Shown here: one piece after another, positions 3,490-9,632 of the stretch
How the letters are laid out: each line of letters starts with the position of its first letter
Position numbering within the stretch: the stretch's first letter is position 1
Assembly (NCBI GenBank): GCA_015486915.1
Contig: WFQS01000091.1
Location: forward strand, 1 to 14,707
From: Desulfobacteraceae bacterium
Lineage (GTDB): Bacteria > Desulfobacterota > Desulfobacteria > Desulfobacterales > Desulfobacteraceae
Reading direction: 5' to 3'
DNA length: 14,707 bases
Notes under the pieces: generated by a model
Databases searched by the model: none
Told to the model about the DNA's origin: nothing
The model's input: the letters and a program-made list of their open reading frames with translations, nothing else
Made by a program: the position numbers and the translations under genes

Positions 3490-4815
3490 ATGAAACAGAC
3501 TCTTTTAACATTTTTAGATGGCGGGGTTCATCCCGAAGAAGGGAAGGAGCTGACTGCACATCTTCCAGTTGAAGTCATGCCAACTCCCGATGAAGTTGAA
3601 ATTCTGCTGAGCCAGCATTTTGGTGCTCCATGCCAGCCTGTGGTTAAGAGAAAGACCATAGTGACGGAAGGAGATCTCATCGGTGAGGTTACTAAAGGGC
3701 TCGGTGCTTCAATCCACTCAAGCGTAACGGGAAAAGTTAAAACCATTGGCAGCGCACCACATCCCATGAAAGTCTCAACCCAATCCGTTGCCATTGAAAC
3801 GGATCATGACGTACCCCAAAAAGAATATTCTCCTTGCGACTGGCAGGCCCTATCCCGTGAAGAGCTCCTTGCAAGGGTAAAAAACGCTGGGATTGTGGGC
3901 ATCGGAGGGGCAGGGTTCCCCACCCATGTCAAGCTTGCTCCGCCTCCACAAGCTAAAATTACGACTCTTATACTCAACGGCGCTGAATGCGAGCCATATC
4001 TCACCATTGACCACAGACTCATGCTTGAAAATGCAGATAAAATCATTGAGGGTGCAAAAATTATACTTGCCATTCTCGGTATTGAGGACTGCCATATTGG
4101 CATAGAGGCAAATAAGCCCGATGCAGTTGAAGCCATGTCAAAGGCTGCAAAGGATGGATGCTCTTCAGGTAACTGCAGTATAAGTGTTGATACTTTAAAG
4201 GTGAAATATCCCCAGGGCTCTGAAAAACAGCTCATTGAAAGCATAACAAAACGCAGAGTCCCGGCTTTTGGACTGCCCATGGATGTGGGGGCAGTTGTAC
4301 AGAATGTGGGAACTGCCAAAGCTGTTTTTGATGCGGTTGTGCTCAATAAGCCCCTATATGAAAAGCTTGTTACAATATCAGGTCTTGGCATTAACAGGCC
4401 TGCTAATTTATCCGTTAAAATAGGAACAAGGCTGAAAGATATTGTGGCTTTTCTTGGCGGAACAAAGGAAAATCTTGCAAAGGTTGTACTTGGTGGCCCC
4501 ATGATGGGGTTTGCCATCCCCAATCTTGATTTTCCTGTAACAAAGACAACTTCAGGTGTTCTTTTTCTGACAAATGATGAAATAGATACCACTCCGTACG
4601 GCCAGTGCATTCGCTGTGGCTGGTGCCTTGAAGCATGTCCCATGGGCCTGTCTCCCAATGAAGTGGGAATTTATGTTGAGGCGGGCCGTGCCGAAGAAAC
4701 AGGAAAATTTGGAATTTTTGAATGTTTTGAATGCGGCAGCTGTGCCTTTGTATGTCCTGCAAAAAGACCCCTTGTGCAGTTCATCCGCATCGCAAAAATG
4801 AAGGCAAAAAGATAG
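3490..4815 (+). CDS. rnfC: Rnf complex subunit RnfC (NADH-binding, iron-sulfur)
   Basis: RnfC is the peripheral subunit at the NADH end of the Rnf complex, which couples ferredoxin:NAD+ electron transfer to ion pumping. The N-terminus has the family hallmark GGVHPEEGKELT (residues 11-22). The glycine-rich NADH/FMN-binding segment GIVGIGGAGFPTHVK is at 134-148, followed by LNGAECEPYLTIDHRLM (162-178). Two [4Fe-4S] motifs close the protein: Cys373-X2-Cys376-X2-Cys379-X3-Cys383-Pro and Cys412-X2-Cys415-X2-Cys418-X3-Cys422-Pro. The 441-residue length is normal for the compact form without the long repeat tail of enterobacterial RsxC. An AGGA sequence sits a few bases ahead of the ATG. It is the first gene of rnfCDGEAB and appears intact. 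Confidence 0.97.
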   Translation: MKQTLLTFLDGGVHPEEGKELTAHLPVEVMPTPDEVEILLSQHFGAPCQPVVKRKTIVTEGDLIGEVTKGLGASIHSSVTGKVKTIGSAPHPMKVSTQSVAIETDHDVPQKEYSPCDWQALSREELLARVKNAGIVGIGGAGFPTHVKLAPPPQAKITTLILNGAECEPYLTIDHRLMLENADKIIEGAKIILAILGIEDCHIGIEANKPDAVEAMSKAAKDGCSSGNCSISVDTLKVKYPQGSEKQLIESITKRRVPAFGLPMDVGAVVQNVGTAKAVFDAVVLNKPLYEKLVTISGLGINRPANLSVKIGTRLKDIVAFLGGTKENLAKVVLGGPMMGFAIPNLDFPVTKTTSGVLFLTNDEIDTTPYGQCIRCGWCLEACPMGLSPNEVGIYVEAGRAEETGKFGIFECFECGSCAFVCPAKRPLVQFIRIAKMKAKR

Positions 4816-4959
4816 TTGAATCTGCGCACGCGCGGACATGCTTAATCTGAGTCTGTTGAAACTGAAATATCAGCATCAGCAACGCTCTGTGTGTGATTCA
4901 CTATAAAAGTTACATATTGAAAGTAAATATTCAAATAACGTAAATTCTGGTCAGTGCTT

Positions 4960-5027
4960 CATATTCGCCTATTTGGGATTGCAAAAGCATACTGATGCTA
5001 TTGTGAAGGCCAAAATGGGCGAATATG
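4960..5027 (+). repeat. Long two-tier stem-loop between rnfC and rnfD
   Basis: Outer arms 4960-4969 and 5018-5027 pair perfectly over 10 bases and continue inward through 4976/5010 with one mismatch and one bulge. Nested inside is a second hairpin (4986-4990 with 4995-4999, extended by 4982-4984/5001-5003). The whole folds as one 68-nt structure in the 275-base rnfC-rnfD gap. Plausible roles are an mRNA processing or stability element that separates rnfC from rnfDGEAB, or a small dispersed repeat. The remainder of the gap shows no gene. Confidence 0.6.
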
Positions 5028-5063
5028 GAATGCCGGCCGAATATTTACTATTGAAATTAAAGG

Positions 5064-5093
5064 TATAATGCTAAATTAAGGAGGAGAATCATT
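5064..5093 (+). promoter_or_regulatory. rnfD translation start: perfect Shine-Dalgarno followed by ATT
   Basis: AAGGAGG (5078-5084) is followed after 6 bases by ATT (5091-5093), which is in frame with rnfD. ATC (5088) precedes it in the same frame. No ATG, GTG or TTG lies in frame between the upstream stop (TAA 5058-5060) and the GTG at 5148. TATAAT (5064-5069) just upstream resembles a -10 box but has no clear -35 partner. Confidence 0.6.
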
Positions 5094-6143
5094 AAAAACA
5101 AGAACGAACAGGCGAGCTTTACAGCAGAGAATCAGGACCTTTGGGTTGTGTCTGTTTCTCCCCATGTCAAGAGTAAGGAAACAGTCGGCAGGATCATGTG
5201 GACAGTTTCTGCTACTCTTGTCCCTCTGCTTATCAGCTCCATATTTATTTTTGGTTTTCAGACGCTTGTTATTACCGCTGTAAGTGTTTTAAGTTGCGTG
5301 GCAGTTGAGGCGATTTCCCAGAAATGTCTGCACCGCCCTGTGACCATAAAAGACGGAAGCGCAGTTTTGACAGGACTTTTACTTGCCTATGTCATTCCTC
5401 CGGGTGTTTCCATATTGGTGCCGGTACTTGGTGCTGTTATGGCTATTTATGTTGCCAAACACCTGCTTGGAGGCATAGGTTCCAACATCTTTAACCCCGC
5501 CCTTATAGGACGGGCCTTTCTCATGGCCACTTTTCCGGTTGCCATGACTTCGGCATGGCTTTCACCTTCGGCAGGAGGTTTTTTCGGCCATGTCCAGACA
5601 GGTGTTGATGCTGTTTCAACGGCAACACCGCTTTTTGTACTGAAACATTTTGGTATTCAGGGAGTAATTGATAAATTCGGCTCCCTTCCAGCTGTATATA
5701 ATCATTTTTTAATGGGATTAAGACCAGGATGTATAGGCGAAACATCTGCCGTTTTGATTATACTTGGAGGACTTTTCCTTTTATACATGAAATACATATC
5801 CTGGCATATTCCTGTTTCCGTGGTGCTCTCCGTGGCATTTTTTACATGGGTATTCGGTGGGGACGCATATTTCACCGGTAATCCCATACTTGCAGTATTG
5901 TCAGGTGGTGTTCTGCTGGGTGCGGTTTTCATGGCAACGGATTATGTCACAGCCCCGAGTCAGCCCATTGCAAAACTTATATATGGAACCGGTATTGGTG
6001 CTATTACAGTTTTAATTCGCTTAAAAGGAGGATATCCCGAAGGTGTCTGCTATGCAATTCTCCTTATGAATGCCATTACCCCTACCCTTGAAACACACTT
6101 CAGACCGAGGCGTTTTGCTCCGCCCAAAGGAGCTGCCAAATGA
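5091..6143 (+). CDS. rnfD: Rnf complex membrane subunit RnfD (likely AUU start)
   Basis: RnfD is a polytopic inner-membrane subunit of the Rnf ion pump; with RnfG it carries FMN bound covalently through threonine. Conserved blocks are visible: TIKDGSAVLTGLLLAYVIPP, AKHLLGGIGSNIFNPALIGRAF, and the flavinylation region DAVSTATPL, whose Thr before Pro is about residue 179 counted from ATT. The start is unusual. From GTG 5148 the protein has 331 residues but loses the segment LWVVSVSPH, of which the first part normally belongs to RnfD N-termini, and that GTG has only a poor ribosome site. The ATT at 5091 sits 6 bases behind AAGGAGG and yields 350 residues. I therefore prefer 5091, though 5148 remains possible. 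The stop overlaps the rnfG start (ATGA), which implies translational coupling. Confidence 0.93.
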   Translation: MKNKNEQASFTAENQDLWVVSVSPHVKSKETVGRIMWTVSATLVPLLISSIFIFGFQTLVITAVSVLSCVAVEAISQKCLHRPVTIKDGSAVLTGLLLAYVIPPGVSILVPVLGAVMAIYVAKHLLGGIGSNIFNPALIGRAFLMATFPVAMTSAWLSPSAGGFFGHVQTGVDAVSTATPLFVLKHFGIQGVIDKFGSLPAVYNHFLMGLRPGCIGETSAVLIILGGLFLLYMKYISWHIPVSVVLSVAFFTWVFGGDAYFTGNPILAVLSGGVLLGAVFMATDYVTAPSQPIAKLIYGTGIGAITVLIRLKGGYPEGVCYAILLMNAITPTLETHFRPRRFAPPKGAAK

Positions 6144-7054
6144 AAGAAATAATACGCATAACACTTGGACTGACCATCTCCTGCCTTATTGCAGGAATAA
6201 TCATGGGCGGCGTTTTCACTGCAACTGAAAAGGCCAAAGAACATAATGAATATCTCAATGTCAGGGGAACAATGACAAGCATGCTGGGTTTTAATACCGC
6301 ACATCCTGTCCCTGCCGATTTAAGGCTCTACACCCTTTACCGTTATATACTTGACGAAAATGGTACAAAAAGTATTGGTTATGTACTGCCGGTAAAGAAA
6401 GATAAAAAAATTTCCTACGCTCTCGTAACAGTGGGTCTTGACGGGAAATTTAAAGGTCTGTCTGATTTAAATATTTCAGAAGATAAAATATCAAAAATTG
6501 AGGAGCGCAAAACAGCCCTTGATGCTGTAGTTAAGCCGCCTGAAACTTTTACCTATGCAGACTCCACCATTATAGCAAAAACAGGTCCTAAACTCCTGGC
6601 CTACCTGCTCCCCGGAGAATTCAACGGCTTTAAAAGCATTATTAAAGTAATGCTTGCCCTTAATTCAAAATTTACCATAACCGCTCTTGAGATCATGGAA
6701 GATGAAGAAGATCCCGGACTTGGGGCTGAAATCTCGCAGGAGTATTTTAAAAATCAGTTTGATGATAAATCCCTGCAAACCATTAAGAAAATTAAAGTTG
6801 TAAAACAACCCCTTCCAAATGATTACAGAAGATATCTTGAAAAATCAAAATGGAAAAAAGGGGAGTTTACAAAGGCAAAAATTGATAAAATCAGAAAAAA
6901 ATACAAGGATCATGATATCTGTGCTCTTACAGGTGCAACCATTACCAGCAGGGCAATGACAAGGGGGATCAAGGCAATGGTAAAGAAATTTGCCTATCGT
7001 ATCACAATACTTGATAATGCTTTGAAACAGAATAAAGTCCCCGTTGCATTTTAG
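6140..7054 (+). CDS. rnfG: Rnf complex FMN-binding subunit RnfG (long form)
   Basis: RnfG is anchored by one N-terminal membrane helix (about residues 5-27) and exposes an FMN-binding domain to the periplasm. It relays electrons within Rnf through covalently bound FMN. The flavinylation motif TGATITS is at 264-270, with Thr269 as the expected attachment residue. The upstream signature EDPGLGAEI is at 190-198. At 304 residues it is about 100 longer than the E. coli protein of roughly 206. The extra length lies mostly between about residues 55 and 155, with a lysine-rich insert near 225-258. It overlaps rnfD by 4 bases and precedes rnfE by 65 bases, a gap holding a small gataa/ttatc hairpin. 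ApbE, the flavin transferase needed for maturation, is not in the window. Confidence 0.94.
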   Translation: MKEIIRITLGLTISCLIAGIIMGGVFTATEKAKEHNEYLNVRGTMTSMLGFNTAHPVPADLRLYTLYRYILDENGTKSIGYVLPVKKDKKISYALVTVGLDGKFKGLSDLNISEDKISKIEERKTALDAVVKPPETFTYADSTIIAKTGPKLLAYLLPGEFNGFKSIIKVMLALNSKFTITALEIMEDEEDPGLGAEISQEYFKNQFDDKSLQTIKKIKVVKQPLPNDYRRYLEKSKWKKGEFTKAKIDKIRKKYKDHDICALTGATITSRAMTRGIKAMVKKFAYRITILDNALKQNKVPVAF

Positions 7055-7119
7055 ATAACAGATAACCCTGATTATCAAAGTATTTCACATAGACAAAATT
7101 TAGATAAGGAAGATATTCA

Positions 7120-7746
7120 ATGCCTGCTACCACAAAAACTAATTTTCAACTTGTTATAAATGGTATTCTAAAAGAGAATCCCATTTTCAGACTGGCTTTA
7201 TCCATGTGTCCGGCAGTTGGAATAAGTACAACAATGATGAACGGACTTATGCTTGGAATTGCAGTCCTTTTTGTCCAGGTCTTTTCAAGCTGCACCATAT
7301 CCATTGTAAAAGACTATATTCATCCAAGGATACGAATCCCGACCTATACCCTTGTCATTGCAACATGGGTAACGGTTATAGATTTAACTCTTGCGGCCCT
7401 TGCACCGGTTGCATACAAGCAGATGGGTATTTTTATAAAACTCATTGTGGCCTTTGCCATCATCACCATGCGCCTTGAAGTTTTTGCATGCAAAAACACG
7501 TTGTGGCCATCTTTCTGGGATGGTGTTGGCATGGGTGGCGGCTTTTTATTTGGTATGCTTACACTCGGATTTGTGCGTGAACTTCTCGGTGCAGGTCAAC
7601 TGTTTGGCTACGATGTATTAGGCTTCAGACCTCTGCTCTTTTTTGCACTGCCCGTTGCCGGTTTTTTCTGTGTCGGCTTTCTAATGGCTGCCTTTAACTA
7701 TATTGAAATTGTTTATAACAAAAGAAAAAAGGCTGTAAATCGATGA
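7120..7746 (+). CDS. rnfE: Rnf complex membrane subunit RnfE (variant lacking a conserved Cys)
   Basis: RnfE and RnfA are homologous membrane proteins inserted in opposite orientations; together they hold an intramembrane [2Fe-2S] cluster. The first half is typical: NGILKENPIFRLALSMCP with Cys30, then RIPTYTLVIA and GIFIKLIV. The conserved block that follows normally reads T-N-C-(I/L)-x-x-G-R-A-E-A-F-A. Here it is AFAIITMRLEVFACKN (residues 111-126), so the Asn-Cys pair is Phe112-Ala113. A new cysteine appears nearby at 124. The C-terminal half (DGVGMGGGFLFGMLTLGFVRELLGAGQLFG) is normal and the 208-residue length fits, so decay is unlikely. AAGGAAG lies about 8 bases before the ATG. The stop overlaps the rnfA start (ATGA). 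Confidence 0.93.
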   Translation: MPATTKTNFQLVINGILKENPIFRLALSMCPAVGISTTMMNGLMLGIAVLFVQVFSSCTISIVKDYIHPRIRIPTYTLVIATWVTVIDLTLAALAPVAYKQMGIFIKLIVAFAIITMRLEVFACKNTLWPSFWDGVGMGGGFLFGMLTLGFVRELLGAGQLFGYDVLGFRPLLFFALPVAGFFCVGFLMAAFNYIEIVYNKRKKAVNR

Positions 7747-8702
7747 AATTTATAAAATGCTATAAACTGATGGCTGTTGCCGTTGTGATCAGCCTTGTTC
7801 TGATATCAGGATGTAAAAATAAACATTCCTATGTCAGCAAGGCAAAATTTAAGGGTGATCACAATATTATAATTACCTTTGCAGGTGAAGTGGATGCTGC
7901 CTGGGCAAAGGATGTTAAAAATTATGGAATTTATGCTAAGCCTGATCCTGATATTCAGCTCACGATAAGTAAAATTATTCCCGGACCTGACAAAAAAACC
8001 GTGGATCTTTATTTTTCCGATGCGATCGATCAGAATCAGCCGCATATACTTACAATAAAGGATATCAAGGCAGACGGTAAGAATCTCGGTTCCACCGTTG
8101 TTGAGGTGAAAAAGCTGTACTTTGGCTTTTTATTCTCAATTCTCATTGGCGCCTTTTTGATTCACAACTTTGTATTTACAAAATATCTCGGTTTATGTGT
8201 GTTCTTTGGTACTTCCCAGAAACAGTCCACTGCCGTGGGTATGGGAATAACCTTTATGATAGTTATGGTGGCAAGTTCCATGATGTCGTGGGCATTTTAT
8301 CAATTCATACTGAAGCCCTTTCATCTTAATTTCCTCCAGATTGTCGTGTTCATCGGTCTTGTCTCTCTTTCGGTGCAGGCCGTTGATACGGTATTGAGGA
8401 AAGTCAATCCTGCACTTTTTAAGGCTTTCGGGGTTTACCTTGTCCTTGTAATAGCAAACTGCGTTATTCTTGCAGTCCCCCTGATCATTGCCAATAATGA
8501 GTACAATGCCGCGGAAAGTTTTATGCTTTCACTCGGTGCCGGAGCAGGTTTCCTTCTTGCACTTTTTCTCATGTCTTCGGTGCGTGAAAAACTGGAACTT
8601 GCAAATGTCCCTGTAACCTATCGGGGTCTTCCCATAGCCTTTGTTGTTGCAGGTCTTTTTGCCCTGGCATTCATGGGGTTTTCAGGTATGGTTATTTTTT
8701 AA
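7743..8702 (+). CDS. rnfA: RnfA with N-terminal lipoprotein and Ig-like domain
   Basis: The C-terminal 195 residues are a complete RnfA: FLIHNFVFTKYLGLC (Cys152), KVNPALFKAFGVYLVLVIANC (Cys240; written here only to its Cys) and RGLPIAFVVAGLFALAFMGFSG. Cys152 and Cys240 match the expected [2Fe-2S] ligands. RnfA is normally about 190-200 residues, but this frame has 319. The extension begins with a lipoprotein signal: a hydrophobic stretch 9-22 and lipobox I-S-G-Cys24. Residues about 30-120 follow with alternating hydrophobic strands (NIIITFAGEVD, NYGIYAKPD, KTVDLYFSDAI, HILTIKDIKA), a pattern like SbsA/Big_5 Ig-like domains. E. coli RnfA has its N-terminus in the periplasm, so an exported domain here is topologically consistent. 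A GTG at 8106 could start a normal-length RnfA but has no spaced Shine-Dalgarno. Confidence 0.9.
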   Translation: MKFIKCYKLMAVAVVISLVLISGCKNKHSYVSKAKFKGDHNIIITFAGEVDAAWAKDVKNYGIYAKPDPDIQLTISKIIPGPDKKTVDLYFSDAIDQNQPHILTIKDIKADGKNLGSTVVEVKKLYFGFLFSILIGAFLIHNFVFTKYLGLCVFFGTSQKQSTAVGMGITFMIVMVASSMMSWAFYQFILKPFHLNFLQIVVFIGLVSLSVQAVDTVLRKVNPALFKAFGVYLVLVIANCVILAVPLIIANNEYNAAESFMLSLGAGAGFLLALFLMSSVREKLELANVPVTYRGLPIAFVVAGLFALAFMGFSGMVIF

Positions 8703-8720
8703 AAGGAGATTAATATAAAT

Positions 8721-9632
8721 ATGGATCCAGCTCTTATTAAACTGGCTTTTGGTGGTCTTGCCGTTCTCGGTTGTATCGGACTTGTTTTTGGAATCGGTCT
8801 TGCCCTTGCAGCACAGAAATTTGCCGTTGAAGTAAATCCAAAGGTTGAAGCGGTTCAGGAAGTTCTTGCCGGTGCCCAATGAGGCGGCTGTGGCTTTGCA
8901 GGATGCGAAGCATACGCCGAAGCGGTTGTTAATGACCCCGATGTTCCGCCTAACCTTTGTTTTCCCGGTAAAGAAGAAGTCGCCAAAATGGTGGCTGATC
9001 TTACAGGCAAACAGATGTCAGCCGTAGAAAATGTTATTGCCTTTGCAAGATGTTCCAGGATAGAAGGAAAGGTAAAAAAGGGAAGTCAATATCAGGGTTT
9101 TTCAACTTGTACAGCTGCAAAACTTGCCTATGGAGGCCCCTTTGAATGCAAACATGCCTGTATGGGTTTTGGAGAATGTGCCGATGCATGTCCGTTTAAT
9201 GCCATCACCATGGTTGATAATTTCCCGCGCGTTGATAAGGATATGTGTGTAGGTTGCGGAACCTGCATCAGGACATGCCCCAATAATGTTATGGAACTGA
9301 TTCCTGTCAAGGCACGTGTTTTTGTACCGTGCAACACAAAGGACAAGGCTAAACAGGTTAAGGAGATATGCGAATCCGGCTGTATTTCATGTAAAATCTG
9401 TGTAAGATCCTGCCCTGCAAAGGCAGTTGCAATGGAAAACGATATTATAAAAATCGATCATAAAATATGTATGGAATACGGAGATGAGTGTGGTGAAATC
9501 TGTGTTGAGAAATGCCCGAGGAATATTTTCAGATCATACACACCCGATGATTTTAAAGAGGGCTTTCACCATGAACTTGAAACACTGCCCATGGAATGCG
9601 GATGCTGCGAAGATAAATGTACAACTTCTTAG
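8721..9632 (+). CDS. rnfB: RnfB, ferredoxin-interacting iron-sulfur subunit, selenocysteine-containing (in-frame UGA)
   Basis: RnfB takes electrons from reduced ferredoxin and feeds them into Rnf. It opens with one membrane helix (about residues 9-31) and KFAVEVNPKVEAVQEVLAGA. The conserved cluster motif A-N-C-G-A-C-G-x-x-G-C appears as A-Q-UGA-G-G-C-G-F-A-G-C. The UGA (8880-8882) is therefore residue 54 at the first ligand position, completed by Cys57, Cys62 and Cys80 (spacing X2, X4, X17). Further clusters are Cys143/147/153/157, Cys176/179/182/186, Cys221/224/227/231 and Cys250/257/261/265, plus a Cys-rich tail near 293-300. Read through, the protein has 303 residues, and both sides of the UGA share one frame and match RnfB continuously. 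An SECIS-like hairpin follows the UGA. AAGGAG (8703-8708) precedes the ATG by 12 bases. A nonsense mutation is the alternative. Confidence 0.93.
8880..8918 (+). promoter_or_regulatory. Selenocysteine UGA codon with bacterial SECIS-like hairpin
   Basis: Right after the UGA (8880-8882) the mRNA can fold into an extended hairpin. The upper stem has 7 bp, 8893-8899 (GCUUUGC) with 8905-8911 (GCGAAGC), including one U-G pair. The apical loop is AGGAU (8900-8904). Below come a 3-bp segment (8889-8891/8912-8914) and a 4-bp base (GGCG 8883-8886 with CGCC 8915-8918). The loop begins 17 nt after the UGA, within the usual bacterial window. The UUGCAGG at its left side and tip resembles the E. coli fdhF SECIS as I remember it. 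Confidence 0.8.

Follow-up and report, generated by a model that had tools for sequence, protein, structure and literature searches.

Does an rnfB gene that is interrupted by a UGA codon encode a selenoprotein, and if so, what would the selenocysteine do in the Rnf complex? The 14,707-nucleotide stretch of Desulfobacteraceae DNA analysed here, referred to below as the window, carries an rnfCDGEAB cluster on the forward strand (3490-9632) with rnfB as its last gene. The initial annotation, which was made from the sequence, described rnfB as one frame with a single internal stop and read that stop, at the first cysteine position of the FdI motif, as selenocysteine; the frame, the codon and the motif positions were all as it had placed them. 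Because selenocysteine and cysteine exchange exactly at this one codon, the sequence after it is under purifying selection and the genomes hold selenocysteine machinery, we conclude that UGA54 is almost certainly read as selenocysteine (Sec54). The features on which the analysis rests are as follows.

3490-4815, forward strand: rnfC (TIGR01945, 516 bits)
5148-6143, forward strand: rnfD, start uncertain, perhaps at 5091 (family and domain matches)
6140-7054, forward strand: rnfG, 304 aa, FMN_bind (RnfG models match below their own cut-offs)
7120-7746, forward strand: rnfE (family and domain matches)
7743-8702, forward strand: rnfA, extended at the N terminus by about 125 aa that bear a lipobox-like signal (family and domain matches)
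8721-9632, forward strand: rnfB, a single frame, 303 aa with UGA54 read through (NCBIfam NF005503, 429.6 bits against a cut-off of 252)
8865-8963, forward strand: FdI domain, Pfam PF04060, residues 49-81, with Sec54, Cys57, Cys62 and Cys80 (domain match, motif and profile)
8880-8882, forward strand: in-frame UGA, predicted Sec54 (of 23 clade relatives, 16 have UGA here and 7 have TGC or TGT)
8885-8919, forward strand: SECIS-like hairpin, upper stem 8893-8899/8905-8911, loop AGGAU 8900-8904 (folding and rule check)

The read-through product is a strong member of the family NF005503, "RnfABCDGE type electron transport complex subunit B", with ferredoxin domains that lie C-terminal to the PF04060 FeS domain. 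Residue 54 opens the motif C-X2-C-X4-C-X17-C (residues 54, 57, 62 and 80; offsets 0, 3, 8 and 26), which here begins as U54-G-G-C57, a UxxC pattern. Among the neighbouring gene products, RnfG, RnfE and RnfA score under the cut-offs of their TIGR models and over those of their Pfam domains. As the initial annotation had foreseen, the open reading frame list splits rnfB into a 53-aa stub and a second frame starting at 8988, and gene callers can thus shorten RnfB in such genomes. The best database match, P0002 (234 aa), begins at the equivalent of residue 69 of the window RnfB and was presumably shortened in the same manner, by a UGA in its gene. The C-terminal tail of RnfB is rich in cysteine (MECGCCEDKC, 9591-9629) and is nearly the same in P0002.

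Codon 54 and the FdI cluster

Across 291 genomes of the class, 15 close RnfB proteins were found (at least 335 bits, the next match having 198 bits), with TGA exactly at residue 54 in 10 and TGC or TGT in 5. Of the 21 matches from 395 genomes of the phylum (E 1e-60), six have the TGA (G001, the nearest genome, and five more) and one is a clade member with TGC; the remaining 14 are outgroup sequences, each with a cysteine at codon 54 and none with TGA. Nine matches among 22 genomes of one family added one UGA and one TGT member to the clade. Besides the window, the clade comprises 23 sequences, 16 with UGA and 7 with a cysteine codon (TGC or TGT) at this position. L001, which belongs to the UGA group, shares 99% identity with the window. 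The presence of UGA at the exact codon in 16 of 23 other clade members indicates that the window UGA is not a product of chance. Furthermore, as expected of a bacterial selenoprotein gene, cysteine homologs align at the UGA (7 clade rows and 13 outgroup rows). Among the 120 database homologs listed of 816, 119 have the motif with a cysteine, or a letter converted to cysteine, at this position, and one is shortened past the position.

With respect to the rest of the motif, the other three cysteines are kept in 37 of 37 rows, and their spacing is identical in all 24 clade rows. A tree of the 37 rows, built with residue 54 masked, requires at least six changes between selenocysteine and cysteine, four of them forced by well-supported branches, and none of 500 label shuffles gave a number as low. 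The UGA row L010, for example, sits inside a group of cysteine rows (L009, L014, L006 and L129). Reading frames were closed where TAA or TAG first occurred, and those in the tree also at a second, terminal UGA. Long branches occur at several deep points of the outgroup, and the changes are counted without regard to their direction. The more distant RnfB sequences of the class search (L016-L030) had their codons read and were left out of the tree, and one outgroup sequence (L124), whose pattern the script missed although a cysteine stands at the site, was left out of the hairpin, recoding, tree and motif-spacing counts.

The cysteine-type RnfB chains of known structure (C. tetanomorphum 7zc6, 9eri_B and 8ahx_B) align with the window protein over the N-terminal region and the FdI motif in all three cases, and its ferredoxin part aligns over the full length with 7zc6 and 9eri and in parts with 8ahx. 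They differ in having a cysteine at the Sec54 position, preceded by LPGAN or MPGSQ, whereas the window clade reads LAG[A/G]Q. In the C. tetanomorphum complex, FdI is a highly mobile domain that follows the membrane anchor and precedes the fixed ferredoxin domains (PMC9588780), and according to a 2025 review the flexible domain delivers electrons to the [2Fe-2S] cluster that RnfA and RnfE hold between them (PMC12174285). The case for a [4Fe-4S] site in FdI was built on an AlphaFold2 model, in which four cysteines are suitably placed, and on corrinoid iron-sulfur protein (PMC9588780). Our FdI profile, built from 21 FdI segments of the 37 rows, aligns with the solved RnfB chains and, weakly, with corrinoid iron-sulfur proteins, placing Cys54 on a motif cysteine of 9fzy_F (E 8.4e-4); zinc-finger proteins such as KAT6B also match weakly, at E-values like those of the corrinoid iron-sulfur proteins.

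Cluster ligation is the most likely role of Sec54 in FdI. The UGA would be read as selenocysteine through the SelB pathway to give full-length RnfB, and the [4Fe-4S] cluster of FdI would be held by one selenium (Sec54) and three cysteines (57, 62 and 80); we consider this whole arrangement probable. FdI is described as the mobile carrier of electrons that links the RnfA-RnfE cluster with the fixed ferredoxin domains in RnfB, so that a selenium ligand would tune or protect this shuttle cluster and, as the initial annotation suggested, might shift its potential. Selenocysteine could also be inserted at residue 54 without ligating the cluster, forming instead a redox-active or protective selenenyl-sulfide with Cys57, while the FdI cluster has an open site or is absent. 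UxxC is indeed a common redox motif among selenoprotein families (PMC13188914), and the structure from C. tetanomorphum shows neither FdI nor its cluster resolved (PMC9588780), but the invariance of the other three cysteines in the clade at unchanged spacing, the modelling of the cysteine form as a four-cysteine [4Fe-4S] site (PMC9588780) and the repeated exchange of selenocysteine and cysteine, which suits a shared ligand role, make this alternative unlikely. If Sec54 does ligate the cluster, evolution has swapped sulfur for selenium in a single electron carrier of an ion pump, close relatives supplying the cysteine controls, and a comparison of the two FdI forms could reveal the effect of selenium on cluster potential, speed or oxygen tolerance.

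Recoding or termination at the UGA

Were the UGA a true stop, whether regulatory or decayed, it would leave a 53-aa membrane stub and a separate ferredoxin from 8988, which are exactly the two pieces that standard open reading frame calling yields. The initial annotation had named random stops, with loss of the hairpin, in close relatives as a sign against recoding. The UGA recurs at the same codon in the 16 relatives, and TAA or TAG stands there in none of the 23. A few more distant RnfB sequences from the class search do have TAG or TAA within the aligned stretch; none of them belongs to the clade. Moreover, the FdI motif cysteines upstream of 8988 are kept in 24 of 24 clade rows.

A comparison of the window with L001 likewise speaks against termination. 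After the UGA we count 22 synonymous base changes per 155 sites and only 5 per 592 nonsynonymous sites, the latter falling in three codons; before the UGA there is one synonymous change per 41 sites and no nonsynonymous change per 118. The sequence after the UGA thus appears to be under purifying selection, and the coding sequence on either side of it seems to be preserved at the protein level. Of the three residues that differ, two (71 and 76) fall between the UGA and 8988, which counts against the selenocysteine reading.

Selenocysteine machinery is widespread in the genomes concerned. In the 15 genomes from the class search, selA is over cut-off in 15, selB in 14 and selD in 13, the latter with one TGA each, and tRNA-Sec is over threshold in 12. 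A further 20 of 21 genomes have selB over cut-off, some of the matches spanning the N-terminal part only. Sorted by the form of RnfB, selB is found in 15 of 16 UGA genomes and in 7 of 7 clade cysteine genomes, indicating that the cysteine forms are not explained by loss of selB. In G001, a metagenome-assembled Desulfobacteraceae and the one near genome examined for this machinery, selA (599 bits) is accompanied by a selD with a UGA inside (370 bits) and by two fdhA genes, each over cut-off and with a single TGA; neither selB nor tRNA-Sec reached threshold there. The suggested search for the four genes, run on this nearest genome, thus found selA and selD and did not find selB and selC. Absence of the last two, which had been named as grounds for rejecting the selenocysteine reading, is literally the case in G001 and favours a true stop, but we read it as missing sequence, since the assembly is 88% complete in 320 contigs and nevertheless holds selA and the UGA-containing selD and fdhA, and selB is present in nearly all UGA relatives.

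A changed genetic code does not account for the codon either, because UGA terminates 3 of the 13 window genes and, in several clade relatives, rnfB itself, which shows that it has not been reassigned. Taken together, termination at codon 54 is highly improbable. A scan of genome contigs returned the near-identical WGCX01000203.1 and three more distant loci; that contig, from G001, encodes an RnfB 99% identical in protein with the same TGA, and as TGA stands at the codon in 15 further genomes as well, the probability that a TGC or TGT was missequenced or misassembled is negligible.

The hairpin downstream of the UGA

The hairpin reported in the initial annotation is present as described, with GCUUUGC (8893-8899) and GCGAAGC (8905-8911) closing the loop AGGAU (8900-8904) and a lower stem that extends from 8885 to 8919. 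If selenocysteine is inserted, this hairpin would act as the SECIS element. It lies within the limits given for bacterial SECIS elements (an energy no higher than -7.5, a distance of 16-37 nt to the UGA, an upper stem of 4-16 bp and a loop of 3-9 nt with G in its first two positions; PMC13188914), a result that is not discriminating. Folding of 8880-8925, which had been proposed as a check, gives -19.2 kcal/mol, a value reached by 7 of 200 dinucleotide shuffles; longer stretches are less distinct (13 of 200 shuffles as good for 8874-8940 and 50 of 200 for 8880-8960). The structure is accordingly stable and of SECIS shape, but the check carries little evidential weight, since the peptide motif nearly demands the hairpin.

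This dependence on the peptide can be followed codon by codon. UUY of Phe59 pairs with GAR of Glu63, GC of Ala60 pairs with GY of Cys62, and the Gly61 codon GGN supplies the loop, so that the motif GFAGCEA nearly encodes the hairpin. Among 1000 synonymous versions of the sequence that encodes the window peptide, 875 pass the SECIS rule, compared with 511 of 3858 codons in window genes generally, and on this ground the hairpin was rejected as independent proof of selenocysteine. Applied by script to the aligned rows, the rule is passed by 13 of 17 selenocysteine rows (window included), 6 of 7 clade cysteine rows and 8 of 13 outgroup cysteine rows. The four failing selenocysteine rows (L002, L005, L010 and L113) have Pro for Ala60, which leads to a C-U mismatch in the stem; L004, likewise with Pro, passes. 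All five Pro60 selenocysteine rows and the four Pro60 clade cysteine rows use TGT for Cys62, which may be an effect of lineage or of the stem.

With respect to stability, only 119 of 5000 synonymous recodings are as stable as the window hairpin or more so. Mean z scores against each row's own recodings are -0.52 for 16 selenocysteine rows (L001 being excluded as a near copy of the window), -0.50 for the 7 clade cysteine rows and +0.46 for the 13 outgroup cysteine rows (selenocysteine against all 20 cysteine rows, P = 0.049; against zero, P = 0.047). Selenocysteine rows thus exceed the expected stability marginally, and clade cysteine rows do so equally. No covariation on both stem sides was seen across the aligned rows, and an Rfam scan of the window gave no match. 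Taken alone, the hairpin is weak evidence for selenocysteine, and a peptide that nearly dictates a SECIS-like fold calls for caution, as hairpins alone are unsafe for calling selenoproteins.

We lean towards the view that the clade RnfB is a native energy-converting protein whose selenocysteine ligates a mobile [4Fe-4S] shuttle cluster feeding the Rnf membrane core, and that GFAGCEA already encodes a SECIS-shaped hairpin, so that a single base change at the cysteine codon would let selenocysteine and cysteine interconvert repeatedly.

Earlier records and further features of the rnf cluster

The initial annotation had allowed that such proteins might have been catalogued before, and this is the case. 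NF005503, as "Fe-S cluster domain-containing protein" with a UxxC motif, is among the selenoprotein families predicted with high confidence in a 2026 review (PMC13188914, Table 1), and PRK07118 with the same motif is in the selenoprotein table of a 2022 review (PMC9312934). The window RnfB belongs to the same NCBIfam family and has the same UxxC pattern, and from this motif we infer that its selenocysteine corresponds to that of the catalogue representatives ABC78902.1 and WP_258165141.1. In their tables and the passages available, these reviews differ from the present account in using a generic name, without Rnf context, ligand role or selenocysteine/cysteine history. They credit the GOS paper (PMC2398784), in whose Tables 2 and 4 and other accessible passages a family of this type was not found.

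Within the accessible parts of PMC13188914, PMC9312934, PMC8318568, PMC2398784, PMC9588780, PMC12174285, PMC5109826, PMC2702500, PMC4287179, PMC8674449, PMC6311696, PMC9768040, PMC7911925, PMC12013277 and PMC5029168, RnfB is not named as a selenoprotein. The part seen of PMC5109826 lists five UGA genes, rnfB not among them, and that of PMC2702500 names 17 energy-metabolism selenoproteins, no Rnf subunit among them, and leaves others to a supplementary table, as PMC4287179 likewise does for further selenoproteins. Literature on selenoproteins or selenocysteine together with RnfB or the Rnf complex, in the portions accessible, yielded nothing that links the selenocysteine family to Rnf or to an FdI ligand. 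The novelty is therefore limited in that, on these sources, the kind is already known under a generic name; new here are the RnfB identity in a whole rnf cluster, the likely ligand position, the repeated selenocysteine/cysteine exchange and the observation that the peptide largely dictates the hairpin.

Two other Rnf-like selenoproteins are distinct. An "RnfC" is listed in PMC5029168 and resembles the present case as an Rnf-like subunit, but it belongs to the RnfC family and not to RnfB. The listed "RnfC" is presumably PrdC; the score of the window RnfC against the PrdC model falls short of the cut-off. The selenoprotein "NADH:ubiquinone oxidoreductase subunit E" (PF02508) is of the same Pfam family as the window RnfA and RnfE; it differs in being a membrane subunit, and the window rnfA and rnfE have no in-frame stop.

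Several features of the other subunits were also observed. Upstream of its GTG at 5148 the rnfD frame is open (5078-5148) to an ATT at 5091 that follows AAGGAGGAG, and this ATT is a possible rare start codon. RnfG has 304 aa, compared with 187-190 positions in the family models that it matches below cut-off. The RnfA extension, with the lipobox-like LISGC, precedes the RnfA domain and has no Pfam match; a related extension occurs in 22 of 24 clade rows (window counted), the contig stopping inside rnfA in the other two (L009 and L111), and the extension is a possible lipidated domain in the periplasm, peculiar to this type of rnf cluster.
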